DNA of 24,962 bases from a virus, in the IMG/VR virus record IMGVR_UViG_3300021963_006030, positions 1 through 24,962 of that record. One strand, 5' to 3'. Position numbers and translations under genes: made by a program. Below, piece after piece: positions 12,968 to 24,566 of this stretch. The notes under the pieces are model-generated. The model worked only from the letters and a program-made list of their open reading frames with translations. It made no database searches and was not told the origin of the DNA. Each line of letters starts with the position of its first letter. The stretch's first letter is position 1.

Positions 12968-13288
12968 ATGGACAAACCCACTGACAACTTTGACAACCGG
13001 CCGAAGATAGACTTCGATCGCCCCGCCGAGGACATTAAGCCGCCCTTGCAGCGTGACCGACTACTCTCCGAACGCGAACGGACCCACGGTGATTTCGCCA
13101 CCGGCGCGCAGGTTTGGGATGATCTCTCACGCGCGATTGGTCGGTTCCCGATGTATCCAGCACAACGTCTCGCACTGTGCATGATCTTTCTCAAAATTTC
13201 CCGCACCGTGCAGAACCCGAGCATAAAGGACCATTGGGACGATATTGCAGGCTATGCCAAACTAGGATCGGAGGCGTGTGATGGTTGA
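12968..13288 (+). CDS. DUF6378-like phage protein (106 aa)
   Basis: The 106-residue protein contains ERERTHGDFATGAQVWDDLS and ends NPSIKDHWDDIAGYAKLGSE. The signature THGDF, then a central helix with YPAQRLALCMIFLKISR, then DHWDDIAGYAKL, matches DUF6378, a widespread phage domain of unknown function. Its N-terminal 35 residues are an acidic, Pro/Asp-rich extension. A strong ribosome site (AGGAGGGATAG) lies right after the terminator. It is followed by the polymerase genes, so it may serve nucleotide metabolism or replication, but this is inferred only from position. Confidence 0.85.
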   Translation: MDKPTDNFDNRPKIDFDRPAEDIKPPLQRDRLLSERERTHGDFATGAQVWDDLSRAIGRFPMYPAQRLALCMIFLKISRTVQNPSIKDHWDDIAGYAKLGSEACDG

Positions 13289-14421
13289 CCCCGAAGAAAC
13301 CGCAACGAAGAGCTTATCAGTTGATTAAGACCTTCCTTTTGGGGGAGGCCATGGGCGACAACGAACTTCGCATCGGCCGGGGATTCGTTGGAGCCTCGGG
13401 CGTGGAACTCCTGCGAATGCTCAACGAGGCCGGCGCGCTAACCCTCACTGCGATGGACCACGACTACATCAACAAATACTTTCAGACCTCGAACCCGCTC
13501 CTGATCGACGCGGTCTGGAACATGCATCCAGAGTTCTACCGCTCCAACGTGTTCCAACTCCATCCGCCGGGGAATAAGATCGAGGCCCTATGCGGCCCGA
13601 AGGGAGAGGGGATACCTGGATACCCAGCGTTGGTGAAGGGAAAGTTCGTGCGGAAGGAGTTTGCCGGGGAGCTAGAAAGGCTTGGCGATGAACTGGTGGA
13701 GCATAATCCTAATTTGGTTATCTGCCTTGGTAACTCTGCTCTATGGGCTCTTAGTGGTACTACTGGTGTCTCGAAGCTTAGAGGATCGACCAGGGCTAGT
13801 ACTCATACCGTTGCTGATTTTAAGCTACTCCCTACTTACCACCCTGCTGCTGTACTTCGTCAGTGGGAGCTTCGGCCCGTAACTGTCGCGGATTTGATGA
13901 AGGCGGCTAGAGAGGCAGAGTACCCGGAGATCAGAAGGCCACAGAGGGAAATTTGGATTGAGCCAAGCATCGAGGACATCCTCGCGTTCACAGAGCAATT
14001 TATTAAACCGTGCGAAATACTTTCGGTTGACATTGAAACAAGTAGAAGCCGAGTTACATGTATTGGCTTCTCTCCAGACCCGAGTCGTGCTATCGTTGTT
14101 CCATTCGATGACTCCCGTAGCAAGGGAAAGTGCTATTGGCCAAGCGCGGGAATTGAAATTCAGGCTTGGCAAATTGTCCGAGGAATTCTCGAAGATGGAA
14201 CAATCCGCAAGGTCTTCCAAAACGGCCTCTACGACATCGCCTTCCTCTGGCGAGCCTATGGGATAAAGGTCTACGGCGCGAGCGAGGACACCATGCTGCT
14301 ATCGCATGCGTTGCAGCCAGAGAGTTTGAAGGGGCTGGCGTTCCTGGGCTCAATTTTTTCCGATGAGGGTGCCTGGAAGTCGGAGCGGAAGGCGAATGAA
14401 ACGATTAAGCGTGATGCATGA
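13285..14421 (+). CDS. Uracil-DNA-glycosylase-like domain fused to 3'-5' exonuclease N-terminal part of a split DNA polymerase (378 aa)
   Basis: Residues 1-210 resemble the family 4/5 UDG fold: GEAMGDNE (20-27, usually GEAPGxxE), FVGASGVELL (34-43), LVICLGNSALWAL (144-156) and TYHPAAVLR (184-192). The CxxC Fe-S cysteines of family 4 are missing, so glycosylase activity is uncertain. Residues about 240-360 are the DnaQ-like exonuclease of family A polymerases: Exo I DIET (249-252), Exo II FQNGLYD (311-317), then DTMLLSHAL (335-343). Exo III is not here; it starts the next gene. The same UDG-exo-pol order occurs as one chain in phage SPO1 polymerase. TTG 13285 keeps the GEAMG motif; an ATG at 13281 reads only 15 codons in another frame. 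Codons are unusually T-rich at about 13690-14180. Confidence 0.85.
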   Translation: MTPKKPQRRAYQLIKTFLLGEAMGDNELRIGRGFVGASGVELLRMLNEAGALTLTAMDHDYINKYFQTSNPLLIDAVWNMHPEFYRSNVFQLHPPGNKIEALCGPKGEGIPGYPALVKGKFVRKEFAGELERLGDELVEHNPNLVICLGNSALWALSGTTGVSKLRGSTRASTHTVADFKLLPTYHPAAVLRQWELRPVTVADLMKAAREAEYPEIRRPQREIWIEPSIEDILAFTEQFIKPCEILSVDIETSRSRVTCIGFSPDPSRAIVVPFDDSRSKGKCYWPSAGIEIQAWQIVRGILEDGTIRKVFQNGLYDIAFLWRAYGIKVYGASEDTMLLSHALQPESLKGLAFLGSIFSDEGAWKSERKANETIKRDA

Positions 14422-15905
14422 AAATAGTTAAAACTCACGAAGCGCGTCCTGATGACTTCGGCCCCTTTGAAAGGGAAATGATCTATAACGGCCTCGACTG
14501 CTGCGTCACCGCCGAGGTCCTCTCTGCCCTTCTCCCCCAACTCGACAACCACACCGCCGCGACCTACTCCTTCTCCCGCGAACTCCAAGGTCCCGCGCTT
14601 GAAATGCGCCTGCGCGGTGTTCTCGTAGACCAAGCCCGAAAGGCAGAGGTGATCGATGAGTACCACGAGAAGATTGAATTCCTCAACCGCAATCTCGAGC
14701 GGATTGTACTGGACGGCGTTGGCCTCGCGTCGTTCAATTGGCGGAGTAGCGCCGACCGAGCTAGGCTTTTTTATGACATCCTTGGAATCCCTCCTGTTTC
14801 AAAAGGCGGGAGGCCAACGACCGACCGGGCCGCAAGGGAAAAGCTCGAAGCCTACACTATCGCCAAGTCTATCGTCGCTCATATTAATACGATCTCAGAC
14901 CTCGCAAAGAAAATCTCCGTCCTCCGAACCGCTATCGATCCCGATGGGAGAATCCGCACCAGCTACAACATTGCCGGAACCAACACCGGCCGTTTCTCCT
15001 CCTCCCTCTCCGAGTTCGGCACCGGAGGGAACCTCCAGAACGTGGAGGAGGGTTTAAGGTCGATCTTTATCTCTGACCCCAAGCAGAAGTTCGCGAAGTT
15101 CGATACGAAGTCGGGGGAGAGCTACTGTGTCGGGGGGATTGAGTGGAATCTGTTTCAGGACGGCGCCTTTCTAGACGCAGTGGAATCCGGCGATCTCCAC
15201 ACCAACGTCGCGATCATTGTCTGGCCAGATTACCCTTGGACAGGAAATCCGAAGGTGGATAAGAAGCTCGCCGAACAACCCTTCTACCGTCACTACGATC
15301 GTCGGTTCATGTGCAAGAAGATTGGGCACGGATCGAACTACGCCGGGATGCCGGAGACACTCGCGGGGCAAGCAAAGGTCCCGGTGAACCTCGTGCGGGA
15401 GTTTCAGCCCAAGTATTTCAAAGCCTTTCCTGCGCATAAGCGCTGGCACGAGTGGGTGGATAACCAACTCCGCACCACCGGTCAGCTGATCTCCCTTACC
15501 GGCCGCAAGCGCCAGTTCTGGGGGAGGCGGAATGACCTCTCCACCTTCCGCGAGGCGGTGGCCTATGATCCCCAGGGGTCCCTCGCGGATATCGTCAACA
15601 CCGTGATGCTCAAGATTTGGCGCCTCGGTATCGCTACCGTTATGATGCACGATCACGACGCCCTCACCTTCCAGTACCCCCAAGAGCGAGAAGATGAAAT
15701 CATCCCAATCCTACTCGAAAACCTCCGACACCCCATCCCACTCAAGCACGGCCGCGTTTTAGAAATACCCGTTGATTGCAATGTCGGCTGGAACAGAGGG
15801 AAGTATGATCCAAAGAAGAACCCAGACGGGCTCCGCGAGTACATACCAGGGGACCAAGGACGTAAACGGAGTGAACCTGTCCACCTCCTCGATCGTAAAC
15901 GGTAG
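14418..15905 (+). CDS. Family A DNA polymerase, C-terminal part with Exo III (495 aa)
   Basis: The start is the ATG at 14418, in an ATGA overlap. Exo III YNGLDC (23-28) begins the protein, followed by the polymerase domain: TNTGRFSSS (188-196), motif A KFDTKSGES (227-235, with D229 and E234), motif B CKKIGHGSNYAG (299-310, with K300/K301 and Y308), and motif C MMHDHDAL (409-416, with H411 and D412; the usual HDE reads HDH). The dNTP-discrimination site appears as His rather than Phe/Tyr, as in several phage lineages. The catalytic residues needed for DNA synthesis are present. Together with the upstream gene it makes a UDG-exo-pol enzyme in two pieces. The polymerase frame has a TGA at 14412, so a continuous single chain by frameshift is unlikely. 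Confidence 0.92.
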   Translation: MKIVKTHEARPDDFGPFEREMIYNGLDCCVTAEVLSALLPQLDNHTAATYSFSRELQGPALEMRLRGVLVDQARKAEVIDEYHEKIEFLNRNLERIVLDGVGLASFNWRSSADRARLFYDILGIPPVSKGGRPTTDRAAREKLEAYTIAKSIVAHINTISDLAKKISVLRTAIDPDGRIRTSYNIAGTNTGRFSSSLSEFGTGGNLQNVEEGLRSIFISDPKQKFAKFDTKSGESYCVGGIEWNLFQDGAFLDAVESGDLHTNVAIIVWPDYPWTGNPKVDKKLAEQPFYRHYDRRFMCKKIGHGSNYAGMPETLAGQAKVPVNLVREFQPKYFKAFPAHKRWHEWVDNQLRTTGQLISLTGRKRQFWGRRNDLSTFREAVAYDPQGSLADIVNTVMLKIWRLGIATVMMHDHDALTFQYPQEREDEIIPILLENLRHPIPLKHGRVLEIPVDCNVGWNRGKYDPKKNPDGLREYIPGDQGRKRSEPVHLLDRKR

Positions 15906-18776: not shown

Positions 18777-21700
18777 TTACCTCTTTGGTGGTGGGCCGTT
18801 GATGATTCCTGAGGACCATTCGAGAATGTTCTTCGGCCTTATGCGGCCCTTGTTAACATCGTAGACATACTGCCCGGTGCGACCCACCTGCGCCATTGTT
18901 GGAACGCCAAGGCCAAGGCCGATGATGTTCGCTCCGGCTTGAATGGGTTTCTGCATTTCCTTGCCTTGGTAAACCCGCTTCCCCTCCGACCAGATCGTGC
19001 CTGCGGCGGTAAGGATCGATTCGATCGGAGTACGCGGGGTAAACCCTTCGAAGACGTAGTTCGCCGCTTCACGAATGAACGGAACGGTCTGCAAGGGTTG
19101 GAGGGCTAGCGCCTTTCCTACATTATTCGCCCACCGCTTGAAGAACGGCGCCTCTCTATTCTCCTTGCTCTCTTGGTTGAACAAGATCGCGCCGAAGAGC
19201 GCCGGGACCGCAATAAAGGTCCAGTAGTTCTTCATAAACTCGCCGTACTCACCGCGGCGAAGATTCCCAGGAAGTTGGCGCGAACCTTGATACATCGTGT
19301 TAAAGAAACCCATAAACGTCGTCGCCATCTTCATGGCCTCACTCCCACGCATGATCGCGGGGAGATTGAATACCGCTGAGGAGCCGTGGCGTTCGCGAAC
19401 AGAAGAGTCAGCAACGGCCGCTGCATCGGTTTCGCTCAGGCCTCGCGCTAGCCCTTGCTTGTACTCATCCACGAAGGTAATCATTCGGAACTGTTGCTCA
19501 ACGTGAACCATTGGCATGAAGGTCAGCCGAACCGCGTCGGCTTGGAGCCCAGACATACCTTTGTCTCGAACCAACTGTTCCACCTTCTCCCGAAAGTCCC
19601 GGTCCATGTTCATGAAGGTGTGGGGGATTTCCTGCGACTTGGCGTGGGCAAGCGCGACGTTATCGGAGTGCTGCGCGTAGAACCTACCCGCAGCGGCGGG
19701 GTTGGCCTCACCCAAGCTGGGAGAGAGAATCACGCGCAGATTCATTGGCAATGCATGCGCAACTAGGTTCAACCGCGCCCGCCGCAGCACCGCGTTGTAC
19801 CACTTAATGGCCGCCTCAGGCTGATCAAACTGCCCGGCCACTGCCTTGAGCCAGGGATCAAACTGCGCCTCGTACTCTGGGCCGTAGTGGTTCCTGATGG
19901 CGCTTCGAATGTCCTTGTCATACACCACCTTCCTGGCCTCCATCACCGCGGGCCGAAACGCAATGTCGTGGATCATCTGTTGGAGCTTACCGGACAACTC
20001 TCCGATCGGACTCTGAAAGTCAACGTAATCCACTACCCCCGTGCGGGCCTTGGTGTAACCGTTGCCTATCGTGGCGCGGTAGTAGTTCGGGCCGAAGAAG
20101 TTGCCTTGAGACTTCTGTTCGACGGAAACCGCCTGATTTGACCGCCAAGGGTCATTGATGATTGGAAAATAACCGCCCTCGAACTCGCCATGCTTGTTGG
20201 AGATCGGTACGTTTTCGATCCAACGCGGCGCCAACCCGGAAAGGTCCTTGTACATGACCTCAGATTCCTTACGAAATTCCTCAAATACGTTCCAAATCCG
20301 CTGAACAAATTCCCAATCCTCCTTTGTCGCGTGTTGATCGAATAATTGCCATAGCTTAGCTTCGCCTGCCTTAGCTTCCTTTCCAAACCAACCGCGCGTG
20401 GCCTTGTCGATGTTCGAGTAATTCCCGAAGTTCAGCATGATGTTGATCATGTTCTGCCGGGTCAGGTCGAACGGCGCGCCATCGCCCGTGCGGGGATCGA
20501 AGAAAAACTCCTGGGGAATGGTGTCGTCTAGAGACTTCTTCCACTCCGGGGTTATCTCCTTGATCTCAGCAAGGCGCTTGGCGAGACGGGTCAACAGCAC
20601 ATTCTGCTTCGCCTCGGCTTCGGCCATCGGCCGGATTATGGCATTCCACAACGGGCCTAGCTCCTGCCGGAGATCGAGGTCCTTGGCAATCTGTTCCATC
20701 TTGACGTTGCCTGCGTCGAGGCCGTAAAGGAGCTTCCCTGCCTTGTTAATAGTCTCCTTACGCAGCGGTAGAGACTTAATGTTGGCAATAACCTCTTCTT
20801 TGAAGTCCGCGAACTCCATCTTCTCGCCAGCAATGGTGATAAGCTTCTCTGCCCGGCCAACGTGGGCTAGGGAGTCGATCCCCGCCTTGAACTCATCGAA
20901 CTCGGCCACGGTCATTTGGGAAAGGGGCTTGGTTGGGGAGGCGGCGTCCACCTCCCACCCCGCCTCGTACTTGGCTTCAACGAACTTCTCCAGGGAACCA
21001 TAGGCTGCGTTGGCTTCCTTAAGCTCCTGAACGCTTCGCTTGACCGGTAGGCCTGCGTCGATAAGCATCGCCTGGATGAAGTCGGTGTATTCTTGATCTA
21101 CGCCCTTCACCTCCCGGTTGGAGAACCGCTTGGCCGTCTTCTCGAACTGGGCTTCTGCCTTCTCGATCTTCCTGGCTTCCTGAGCCTCGACCACCGCGAC
21201 GTATTGCCGAACCTTTTGTCGAAGGGCCTCCGCTGGATTGTCCTTTAAGTATCCCATTTCCAGCGCCTTGCCTGCGCGACCAGCCGCCGCAAGGCTCCGC
21301 TTGGAGGAGACAAGGGCCAGAGCGGTTCCCATCAACCGATCGTGAACCCAGGACTTAATCTCCCCCTTCTGGATCGTGAACTGCGCGCCTGCTTCGAGCG
21401 CGAGGGCGAGAGTTTCCTCATGGAGAATATCCAACGTGGTCTCGCCGAGGACCTGATCCACCGCGGCGTCGAGGATATTATTCTGGAGATCACCGTGAGT
21501 CTCGGCCATCCGGCGGTCAATCTCGCCTTTGATCAGCTCCCGCTTCCAATCGCCGGGGCGTTTGCCGGAGTCTCTGATCTCCTTCTGTAGGTCCATCAGG
21601 GAGAGCAGCAGCTGCGATCCGTTCTCAAATCCGGTCAGCGCCGCGAGATCATCCGGGTGTAGGCCGTTCTTCTCGAAGTAGTAGAAGGGAAGAGCCTCGC

Positions 21701-24566
21701 GGACCTCGGGAGGAACGGAGTCGGAGGCGATCCTGGCGCGGGTTTTCATATCCTCGCCGAAGTAGGTCCCATCCCGGAGGAGAGTATCCGCCGCAATTGC
21801 TGGTCGGGCGTTGATCTCGGCAACTACGTCCGGACGGATGCGGGCCTCCTCGGCCTTCCACTCGGCGGTTTCTCGGCGCTTTTGTTCCTTAAGGGCACGG
21901 GCGGTAAAGTAGTCTACGTCATCGATCTGTTGCTGGTTGGTAAGCTTCGCAATGCGCTTGTACACCGCCTCGGTCATGCCCCCAGCGGCAGCGGTCTGGA
22001 AAGGCTGGGATTCGCCAATGGTGATGGGTTGTTTGGGGGGTTTGGCAGGCGCAGCATCCGGCACCGTGGCTTCAATGTTCTTGAGGCTGATCGTAACCTT
22101 GGCAGCGTCTCCAGGGTTCTTACCACCAAACCACCGCGCTCCGTCTGCGCGGAATCCGGAAATAGATTCCGCTAAAGGGAACTCCATCTTAACTTGGCGT
22201 AATACATCAAGCATCACTCGTGTGCCAAGTTTATTAGTAACATTCCCTTCAACGCCTTCAAATTCATTTACATATAAATTCTTACCACCATCCTGTTCAG
22301 TAAGTGCAATACTCGCAATTGGCTTACCATCCGGGCCAATTAAATCAAAGCTGTGGTCATTTGCACCGGCTGTTGTTTGCCAGTCATAGACTTTCTCTGT
22401 ATTAGAATTGCGCTGTAGTGTAAGCTTCCGCTCCGCCCTCAGCGGCCGTGCTAACCCCGCGGCCTCTCTCACCGCCTCAACCGGGTCCTTCGGCGGACGG
22501 GGGACGGGTTGATCGTTCTTATGGGTGATCTCGGCGAGGGATTCGTCGAAGAGGACGATGTTGTGGGTCTTAGGCGGGGTGTCAAGTTTCATACCCGCCG
22601 AATTCATTCCTCCAGGGCCAGGACGCGACCCCTGATCCAGATACTTGATCCCCGGGATGCCCGCTTCGCGGAGGGCTTTGGAGGCGGCAGCATCACCACC
22701 TTTTCTTACCCCGCCGAGTCTATCGGCCATCATACTATATGCGGCAGACAAAGGAGCCTTTTGATCAAATGGGCCGTGTTCGATGTCTAATACTTTAAGT
22801 CTCTCCTGTACGTAAGGACTCTGCTCCCCCAGCGGCTTATCCCAATCGAGGAACTTGGCCTTGTCGGCTTTGATGGAGACTTTATAAAGATTGCTAGATA
22901 GCTGCTTGACCGGAGGCAACTCTTTTGGATTCTCAAGCCGCTGTAGAACTTCCTGATAAAACTCCTCATCAGGTGCTCGGGCGATATCCTGTTTGATCTT
23001 CTCAATCGCCGCTTCGCGCGTGCCTAAATCAAATACCATAGTAGCGGCTTGGTGAACCGGATAATCCGGATTGTAATGTACTCCATCAACAAGAGTATCA
23101 GCCGCTCTGGAGGCGTAGTCCTTCCCTACCGCTGGATTCTCAGCAAAGTAAAGCCCATGCCCATAGCGCTGCGCGCCCTCCCCCGTCCCGATCTTCTCCA
23201 TCGAGAACGCATCGAATTCATGCGGCGAGCCGTGGAAGACATCGAACGCCGCCGCTTCCTTCGCGGCCTCCGCATCCAGCTTCGTCAGGTTCCCTTCCCT
23301 TACCCGCGTGCCGTCCTCCAGCGCCTTCGCAACGCTTGGGTCCACCCGCGCCAGCCAATCGGCAACGGGGACCATGATGTCACCGCCGGTCGCCCACGCT
23401 AGCTCCAGCTGCCGTTCGATCCCTGGAATCCAGCCGAGGATACCGTCCTCTGGGTGGGGAACCTTATCGCCATAGAGTTCGAGGACCGCATCGACCGAGA
23501 TTCCGATCTTCTCATCGGTATGCTGGCGAAGGAACTCGCCAAAGAGTTCTGGGGAGCGTTCGCGGGTGGCGGAGAGTTGTACGTCTTTCAAGGCCTCGTT
23601 TAGGTCCTTGAGGTCAACAACGTTTTGTTCTGCCTTTACTGCATCGATTAGTGGGTCGATCCCAGCTGGAGGATGCTGTCCCGCCTTGATCCACGGAGTG
23701 ATCTTATGCCCGAGATCAAACAGATACTGCCCCGCCTTGTTGGGGGTAGCAAAGCCGAATCCAGCTGCGGCGGATAAGGCTACATTCTTCGGGTCCACAT
23801 GGCCTTCGAAGGCAAGCTCCGTTCCTGCTTCTAGCCCTGCGCCAAAGCCCGCGCCAATCGTTCGCACTCTAAGGCTAGCCGCAGTCGGCTTCATACCCGC
23901 CAAGAATGGAGCCATGCCACCCATAAACTGCGCTGTTGGATGTAAGGCTTTGTCGATCGCCTGCTGCTCTTTGTCTAAACCAAAGAGCTTAAGCTGAGCT
24001 TCTGGAACGTGCGAGAGCAGCCATTCCTGCGCAATCGATATAGCATAACCAGCACCGAAGCCGCCTAATAGGCCACCGACTACAGCGCCGACGGGAACTG
24101 TAACAGGCGCAAAGGGTCCTCCAAAGGCACCAGCGCCAGCGCCGATAGTTGCACCCGCTGCCATAGCAGGCATTGAACCTATAGCTGGGATAGCACCGCG
24201 CTCAGCCGCACGAAGGAACGCGCCAGTGCTGGAAGTGCGTTGAGATAGCTTAAACACACTCTGCGATACGGTGTCCAACTGGCCGTAGTCGTCGTTGGAA
24301 ACCTTCGACGCCATTGGATTGCGCGCGAGGTAATCCGAGATAAACGCGTTGTTGTTGACGATGTCCCCGGCTAGCGCGGTCTTGTTCTGCCGTTCGAAGT
24401 TGTCGAGATCGCCGTAGATCACTGGGGCCGGAACGCCGGTGGTCTGGGAGAGGCGCAAGGCGCGGGCCGCATTCTCAGGATTGTCGTCGATCGCACCGAT
24501 CGCCTGAGCTTGCGCTGTGCGCCGGGGGAGTGCGACTACGTCATCAATCGCGTCTGTGTAGCTCAT
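18777..24566 (-). CDS. Giant polyvalent internal-virion-type protein with ADP-ribosyltransferase domain (1929 aa)
   Basis: A 1929-residue protein of the kind phages package and eject into the host. Residues about 25-100 resemble a helical N-terminal domain of large virion proteins. Residues about 122-180 are Gly/Ala-rich, hydrophobic and GxxxG-like, suggesting membrane insertion. Residues about 441-680 form an ART-PolyVal-like domain: FHGSPHEFDAF (444-454), IGTGEGAQRYGHGLYFAE (459-476), GIPGIKYLDQGSR (636-648) and NIVLFDES (669-676). Residues about 720-835 have a GNAT-like look (NKLGTRVMLDVLRQVKMEFP). Long helical parts follow, then a late segment YWTFIAVPALFGAILF and an ending RIRPKNILEWSSG. 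Patches of the DNA (about 22690-23110 and 22190-22430) are visibly AT-richer, which fits mosaic domain acquisition. ATGA overlap with the gene upstream. Confidence 0.9.
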   Translation of the reverse strand: MSYTDAIDDVVALPRRTAQAQAIGAIDDNPENAARALRLSQTTGVPAPVIYGDLDNFERQNKTALAGDIVNNNAFISDYLARNPMASKVSNDDYGQLDTVSQSVFKLSQRTSSTGAFLRAAERGAIPAIGSMPAMAAGATIGAGAGAFGGPFAPVTVPVGAVVGGLLGGFGAGYAISIAQEWLLSHVPEAQLKLFGLDKEQQAIDKALHPTAQFMGGMAPFLAGMKPTAASLRVRTIGAGFGAGLEAGTELAFEGHVDPKNVALSAAAGFGFATPNKAGQYLFDLGHKITPWIKAGQHPPAGIDPLIDAVKAEQNVVDLKDLNEALKDVQLSATRERSPELFGEFLRQHTDEKIGISVDAVLELYGDKVPHPEDGILGWIPGIERQLELAWATGGDIMVPVADWLARVDPSVAKALEDGTRVREGNLTKLDAEAAKEAAAFDVFHGSPHEFDAFSMEKIGTGEGAQRYGHGLYFAENPAVGKDYASRAADTLVDGVHYNPDYPVHQAATMVFDLGTREAAIEKIKQDIARAPDEEFYQEVLQRLENPKELPPVKQLSSNLYKVSIKADKAKFLDWDKPLGEQSPYVQERLKVLDIEHGPFDQKAPLSAAYSMMADRLGGVRKGGDAAASKALREAGIPGIKYLDQGSRPGPGGMNSAGMKLDTPPKTHNIVLFDESLAEITHKNDQPVPRPPKDPVEAVREAAGLARPLRAERKLTLQRNSNTEKVYDWQTTAGANDHSFDLIGPDGKPIASIALTEQDGGKNLYVNEFEGVEGNVTNKLGTRVMLDVLRQVKMEFPLAESISGFRADGARWFGGKNPGDAAKVTISLKNIEATVPDAAPAKPPKQPITIGESQPFQTAAAGGMTEAVYKRIAKLTNQQQIDDVDYFTARALKEQKRRETAEWKAEEARIRPDVVAEINARPAIAADTLLRDGTYFGEDMKTRARIASDSVPPEVREALPFYYFEKNGLHPDDLAALTGFENGSQLLLSLMDLQKEIRDSGKRPGDWKRELIKGEIDRRMAETHGDLQNNILDAAVDQVLGETTLDILHEETLALALEAGAQFTIQKGEIKSWVHDRLMGTALALVSSKRSLAAAGRAGKALEMGYLKDNPAEALRQKVRQYVAVVEAQEARKIEKAEAQFEKTAKRFSNREVKGVDQEYTDFIQAMLIDAGLPVKRSVQELKEANAAYGSLEKFVEAKYEAGWEVDAASPTKPLSQMTVAEFDEFKAGIDSLAHVGRAEKLITIAGEKMEFADFKEEVIANIKSLPLRKETINKAGKLLYGLDAGNVKMEQIAKDLDLRQELGPLWNAIIRPMAEAEAKQNVLLTRLAKRLAEIKEITPEWKKSLDDTIPQEFFFDPRTGDGAPFDLTRQNMINIMLNFGNYSNIDKATRGWFGKEAKAGEAKLWQLFDQHATKEDWEFVQRIWNVFEEFRKESEVMYKDLSGLAPRWIENVPISNKHGEFEGGYFPIINDPWRSNQAVSVEQKSQGNFFGPNYYRATIGNGYTKARTGVVDYVDFQSPIGELSGKLQQMIHDIAFRPAVMEARKVVYDKDIRSAIRNHYGPEYEAQFDPWLKAVAGQFDQPEAAIKWYNAVLRRARLNLVAHALPMNLRVILSPSLGEANPAAAGRFYAQHSDNVALAHAKSQEIPHTFMNMDRDFREKVEQLVRDKGMSGLQADAVRLTFMPMVHVEQQFRMITFVDEYKQGLARGLSETDAAAVADSSVRERHGSSAVFNLPAIMRGSEAMKMATTFMGFFNTMYQGSRQLPGNLRRGEYGEFMKNYWTFIAVPALFGAILFNQESKENREAPFFKRWANNVGKALALQPLQTVPFIREAANYVFEGFTPRTPIESILTAAGTIWSEGKRVYQGKEMQKPIQAGANIIGLGLGVPTMAQVGRTGQYVYDVNKGRIRPKNILEWSSGIINGPPPKR

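Follow-up and report, generated by a model that had tools for sequence, protein, structure and literature searches.

Bacterial Pol III and archaeal Pol D divide exonuclease and polymerase between separate subunits, each active site lying inside one chain. Phage replicative polymerases encoded in two genes have also been described. Aeromonas phages 25 and 44RR carry a family B polymerase split as gp43A/gp43B, sometimes with an endonuclease gene in between, and in phage 25 both products co-purify and show activity (PMC2988022). OM43 phages MEP401 and MEP402, like most of their group, have a family A polymerase divided into two ORFs that flank a small one (PMC10580990), and the split NrdA of phage Aeh1 is an essential enzyme in two polypeptides that performs as well as the intact one (PMC2988022). 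With regard to the exonuclease itself, ExnV1 (PDB 7r0t) is a lone Pol I-type chain from a viral metagenome whose catalytic residues have been matched to Klenow, and in its structure the counterparts of D355, E357 and D501 touch metals (PMC9629493).

The locus described here lies on the IMG/VR virus fragment IMGVR_UViG_3300021963_006030, whose 24,962 bases make up the window. Two of its genes very probably encode, one subunit each, a single proofreading DNA polymerase of family A, the exonuclease site of which would be assembled in trans. On a broader scale, the data lean towards a large, old phage clade having fixed an obligate two-subunit family A polymerase, with a proofreading site built from two gene products and with dedicated ends. 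Split phage polymerases are already known; the present pair differs from them in being cut through the exonuclease site and in being fixed throughout a large clade. The open-licence literature yielded no description of either, an earlier report elsewhere being possible, as well as nothing on phage family A polymerases combined with a UDG domain and no relevant paper on split PolA.

Results

Organization of the two genes

A reading of this DNA from its letters alone (hereafter the sequence-only reading) had placed a UDG-like domain with Exo I and Exo II in ORF1, and Exo III with the polymerase in ORF2. Pfam and motif assignments agree, and the ATGA overlap and the TGA in the polymerase frame that it reported are both present (Table 1). 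ORF1 matches PF01612 (DNA_pol_A_exo1) over the first two thirds of the family (2e-7), whereas chain 2 combines PF00476 with the motif A, B and C residues of a family A (Pol I type) polymerase. The start of ORF1 is uncertain, a TTG at 13321, which gives an N-terminus resembling that of most relatives, being at least as likely as the TTG at 13285.

Table 1 Features of the split polymerase locus, in positions of the window
Feature	Position	Strand	Evidence or conservation
Chain 1 gene (ORF1): UDG-superfamily domain and Exo I/Exo II part of Pol I-type 3'-5' exonuclease	13285..14421	+	ORF call, Pfam
UDG-superfamily domain (PF03167) in chain 1	13327..13872	+	Pfam 3e-12
Exo I, DIET (D249, E251 of chain 1)	14029..14040	+	D and E in 150/150 pairs
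Exo II, NGLYD (N313, D317 of chain 1)	14221..14235	+	N 150/150; D 149/150, one E
Chain 1 C-terminal tail TIKRDA	14401..14418	+	T373 119/150; K375 144/150; D377 119/150 and 26 E
TGA closing chain 2 frame just 5' of chain 2 ATG	14412..14414	+	Read from sequence
ATGA overlap: chain 1 stop/chain 2 start	14418..14421	+	Read from sequence
Chain 2 gene (ORF2): Exo III helix and family A polymerase	14418..15905	+	ORF call; DNA_pol_A (PF00476) 5e-27
Chain 2 N-terminal head MKIVKT	14418..14435	+	I at position 4 127/150; T at position 6 139/150
Exo III, YNGLD (Y23, D27 of chain 2)	14484..14498	+	Y and D 150/150
Polymerase motif A Asp (D229 of chain 2)	15102..15104	+	150/150
Polymerase motif C His-Asp (H413, D414 of chain 2)	15654..15659	+	148/150, remaining 2 gaps

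In one-chain relatives, comprising Microcystis phage Mel-JY34, ctMlz233 and their IMG/VR kin, PF03167, PF01612 and PF00476 all occur in one protein, so that the two genes of the window are parts of a single chain elsewhere; the earlier likening to one-chain UDG-exo-pol proteins was therefore right in kind, the Mel-JY34 type having the same three domains. By profile comparison, the N-terminal domain of chain 1 is assigned a UDG-superfamily fold closest to type-4 UDGs, a profile of 49 relatives matching type-4 UDG structures down to 4e-24. Type-4 UDGs bind an iron-sulphur cluster with four cysteines, among them that of the KCRPP motif and two N-terminal to GExxG. In the consensus of the chain 1 domain, Leu or some other residue replaces the KCRPP cysteine, and the stretch preceding GExxG is absent, which makes a type-4-like iron-sulphur cluster unlikely.

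Three further features of the window were recorded. Motif C reads His-Asp-Ala (15654-15662), the last position being Ala in 130 and Ser in 16 of 150 clade sequences and usually Glu in Pol I. A DUF6378 gene lies directly upstream of chain 1 (12968-13288) and another sits between the halves in a relative (L050, 552-818), indicating that such genes move around the operon. On the minus strand, a 1929-residue ORF (18777-24566) that matches LPD22 and, weakly, an ADP-ribosyltransferase (ART-PolyVal) is of the large polyvalent protein kind.

Conservation of the break

Relatives were gathered in three scans: an IMG/VR search with ORF2, which gave 80 relatives (54-68% identical); a search with an ORF1 alignment as query, which, pooled with the first, gave 117 distinct split loci; and a scan sorted by likeness to Caulobacter phage Kuura, the best 80 of whose 561 candidates added 52 distinct loci. 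The break is at the same place in all of these ~169 distinct loci, nearly all from IMG/VR, a recurrence far beyond chance. The halves are separate ORFs in every clade member examined with both on the contig, and no fused form occurs among the ~169 loci; the third scan covered the best 80 of its 561 candidates, and the others may include a one-chain member. A scan of genomes gave two matches only, a Terriglobia MAG contig and an Actinomycetes MAG contig, and both are split. The same split is present, with two small ORFs between the halves, in Kuura, a cultured, plaque-forming podophage (PMC9959647). Chain 1 is annotated as a hypothetical protein in the Kuura record, and such phages can consequently seem to lack proofreading.

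The sequence-only reading had proposed asking whether relatives share the split: ~169 distinct loci do, and the one-chain relatives do not. In a tree of the polymerases with 104 split rows and 18 one-chain rows, a single branch (support 100) divides the two forms, as expected from one split event, suggesting that a single origin of the split is likely; midpoint rooting and some long branches leave it short of proof.

Across the first 117 loci, the two genes overlap or lie within 20 nt of each other in 42, of which 17 have the 4-base overlap seen in the window; 2 have short gaps, and in the remaining 73 the halves are separated by 100-1,357 nt. This distribution bears on the proposal that one polypeptide is made after all, the break being either a sequencing error or mended by programmed frameshifting, stop readthrough or an intron. 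The small overlap in the window would suit such a rescue, as would the few loci where both ORFs share a frame with only a stop codon between them, and phage polymerase genes with introns are known (PMC10580990). We nevertheless regard it as highly improbable, because the ~169 distinct loci differ in relative frame, the 73 long inserts carry ORFs of their own, slippage would have hardly any space given the TGA at 14412, and a conserved tail and head end and begin exactly at the break. Many independent loci with the same break rule out a sequencing error and a decaying gene, and whole genes between the halves rule out in practice the outcome that the sequence-only reading had named as its refutation, a resequencing that rejoins the frames. 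Since genes intervene in most loci, frameshifting and readthrough are excluded as a general rescue, in keeping with the little room that had been claimed for the former; together with the varying frames and the lack of any Rfam match, group I introns included, in the window or Kuura, the intervening genes also dispose of an intron.

As a separate observation, in one relative with an HNH gene in the gap (L051, 399-2257) the frame of chain 2 shifts between residues 41 and 45, and this copy may be damaged or misassembled.

Catalytic residues, selection and ends

Conservation was counted in 150 aligned chain 1/chain 2 pairs. The exonuclease residues, which correspond to Klenow D355, E357, D424, Y497 and D501, are invariant over both chains, bar one D to E replacement in Exo II. 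The counterparts of D355 and E357 are on chain 1 and that of D501 is on chain 2, so that the DEDDy set (Exo I D-x-E, Exo II Asp and Exo III Y-x3-D) is complete only when the two chains are taken together; in no clade member examined does one polypeptide hold all of these motifs, Exo III being in a separate gene. The motif B Lys of chain 2 (K300) is present in 150/150 pairs, as is the motif A Asp, and the motif C residues are interrupted only by the two gapped rows.

Five regions allowed an estimate of dN/dS, the 13-residue tail being saturated at synonymous sites. Their values, between 0.08 and 0.22, indicate purifying selection on both chains; at 0.12, the UDG domain is constrained as much as the rest.

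At the break, chain 1 ends with the consensus TIKRD[DE] and chain 2 begins with M[KR]IIxT (Table 1), neither of which is found in one-chain relatives. The distance from the WK of chain 1 to the YN of Exo III is ~37 residues in split pairs versus ~19 in one-chain relatives, and the split-specific ends are accordingly additions, not mere cut surfaces.

Coevolution and predicted fold

Direct coupling analysis was applied to the 150 pairs (~120 effective sequences), covering residues 225-378 in chain 1 and 1-130 in chain 2. The two highest-ranking pairs overall are both inter-chain (342-53, z 14.0; 334-54, z 12.2), as are 23 of the top 50, compared to 0 with shuffled pairing. In a phylogeny-matched control with the primase on the same 120 loci, the exonuclease and polymerase chains have 24 pairs in the top 50 (max z 13.1) against 7 and 8 (max z 6.3) for the control. 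A second control with sak4 (79 loci) was noisier, with 15 pairs in the top 50 and a max z of 9.9, for which reason the weaker coupled pairs should not be taken as contacts, and part of the signal could come from shared ancestry alone. By these statistics chains 1 and 2 coevolve beyond the phylogeny-matched control, and the leading pairs, which connect residues 334, 342 and 347 with 39, 53, 54 and 60, look like two packing helices.

In locus L013 the TAA that ends chain 1 leads in frame into chain 2; for structure prediction with AlphaFold2, the two were joined by reading TAA as Q, with separate exonuclease and polymerase rows as input. The fused pair was modelled with a mean pLDDT of 89-90 and a pTM of 0.83. 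The Exo III helix is confident and low confidence is restricted to the break (residues 328-336), as expected of an exposed loop; the head of chain 2 is predicted as a short strand. In a Foldseek search, the first model came closest to E. coli Pol I and Klenow (E 8e-27). As an artificial fusion the model is a stand-in for the complex, not proof of binding; within that limit, it indicates that the fused chain can fold in a Klenow-like manner. Together with the coevolution, it gives indirect support to the idea that the two products bind and yield an active enzyme.

These results also weigh on the alternative that the chains act apart, chain 2 as a polymerase without proofreading and chain 1 as an independent UDG or nuclease-like protein serving some other function. 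The genes are indeed separate, often with others between them, and the UDG domain could work by itself. Without Exo III, however, chain 1 has no complete exonuclease site; a lone Exo III helix on chain 2 would be useless, yet its Tyr and Asp are invariant; and the inter-chain coupling sits in the exonuclease region. Independent action is thus unlikely. The sequence-only reading had left two possibilities, a site formed from two polypeptides or a loss of proofreading: retained residues, purifying selection and coevolution lend good support to the former and contradict the latter.

The intergenic region and the origin of the split

In the 72 gaps examined there are 94 ORFs of at least 40 residues, which form 77 sequence clusters and may, among the shortest, include spurious ones. 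Those identified include genes for HNH, Endonuclease VII and GIY-YIG nucleases, for a deoxynucleotide kinase and for a gp5.9-like RecBCD inhibitor, as well as DUF6378. The window has no endonuclease gene at the break, and a minority of relatives has one, with HNH, Endonuclease VII or GIY-YIG genes in the gaps of L023, L031, L051, L063, L066, L073, L131 and L135. As a control, inserts of >100 nt were counted at other junctions of the operon, where they occur in 38/90 loci at sak4/ssb, 69/96 at ssb/exo and 7/100 at pol/primase. A special insertion hot spot at the exo/pol junction is hence unsupported, sak4/ssb and ssb/exo being similar, though pol/primase takes inserts rarely, and the gap is best described as an ordinary gene boundary of the operon.

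Within the two-subunit interpretation, the split might have been made by a free-standing homing endonuclease that inserted between Exo II and Exo III and was later mostly lost or replaced. Precedents exist in nrdA of Aeh1 and gene 60 of T4 (PMC2988022), and the nuclease genes listed above speak for it; most gaps, on the other hand, hold other genes or are empty, and the insert rates at other junctions imply that the gap nucleases may have come late to a boundary that was already there. We consider this origin conceivable, with the odds somewhat against it.

In the two-subunit scheme that we favour, an ancestral one-chain UDG-exo-pol gene would have been cut in the loop between Exo II and Exo III, deep in the phage lineage and probably once. 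The helix near the N-terminus of chain 2 would complete the exonuclease fold and supply the Tyr and the metal-binding Asp, and the TIKRD[DE] tail and the M[KR]IIxT head probably contribute to keeping the junction together. In loci with abutting genes, the window among them, ATGA probably couples their translation; after the split, the junction would have turned into an ordinary gene boundary at which other genes come and go.

Breaks at other sites were also noted. One-chain-type relatives (L085, 4953-8087; L175/L179; L180/L181; L186) show a second recurrent break in the polymerase domain, just after an NLQN motif; the open frames are 45-817 nt apart, and no Rfam intron match was obtained. The MEP401 split appears to be in the same domain (PMC10580990). 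Two related polymerase genes (L178, L184) have a third break site early in the protein, after the UDG region. In the SPO1-like Bacillus phage Goe26 (L266, 2713-6307), the polymerase is annotated as two genes with a third between them, an interruption that is possibly an intron.

Discussion

Throughout an entire clade, selection seems to have preserved a catalytic site that is divided in two. The split and its conservation, the retained catalytic residues, purifying selection, the conserved ends, coevolution and the Klenow-like fold of a fused pair are what the data show; that the chains assemble physically, that the pair has exonuclease activity, what the ends do, that translation is coupled and that the split arose once are what we infer. 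The cultured member Kuura makes the survival of an enzyme cut through its active site directly testable, offering a natural two-part proofreading polymerase. If the two-subunit interpretation is true, proofreading could in principle be set by the amount of chain 1 that is made or bound.

Among known systems, one-chain polymerases of the Mel-JY34 type are alike in domain order and have similar neighbours, such as a DUF3987 protein downstream, but are encoded by one gene, with the shorter spacing between WK and Exo III (~19 residues) and neither the TIKRD tail nor the MKII head. The gp43A/gp43B pair is likewise a phage replicative polymerase in two genes; it differs in belonging to family B instead of A and in being reported for few phages, and a cut through the exonuclease site is not stated. 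In MEP401/MEP402 the break falls inside the polymerase domain and leaves the exonuclease whole, and an intron was considered there (PMC10580990). The divided enzyme of Aeh1 is a ribonucleotide reductase, found in a single phage with the homing endonuclease still present. Finally, ExnV1 and the Pol I of phage G20c share with the split pair a Pol I-type exonuclease; unlike chain 1, ExnV1 has the Exo III residues and is complete alone.
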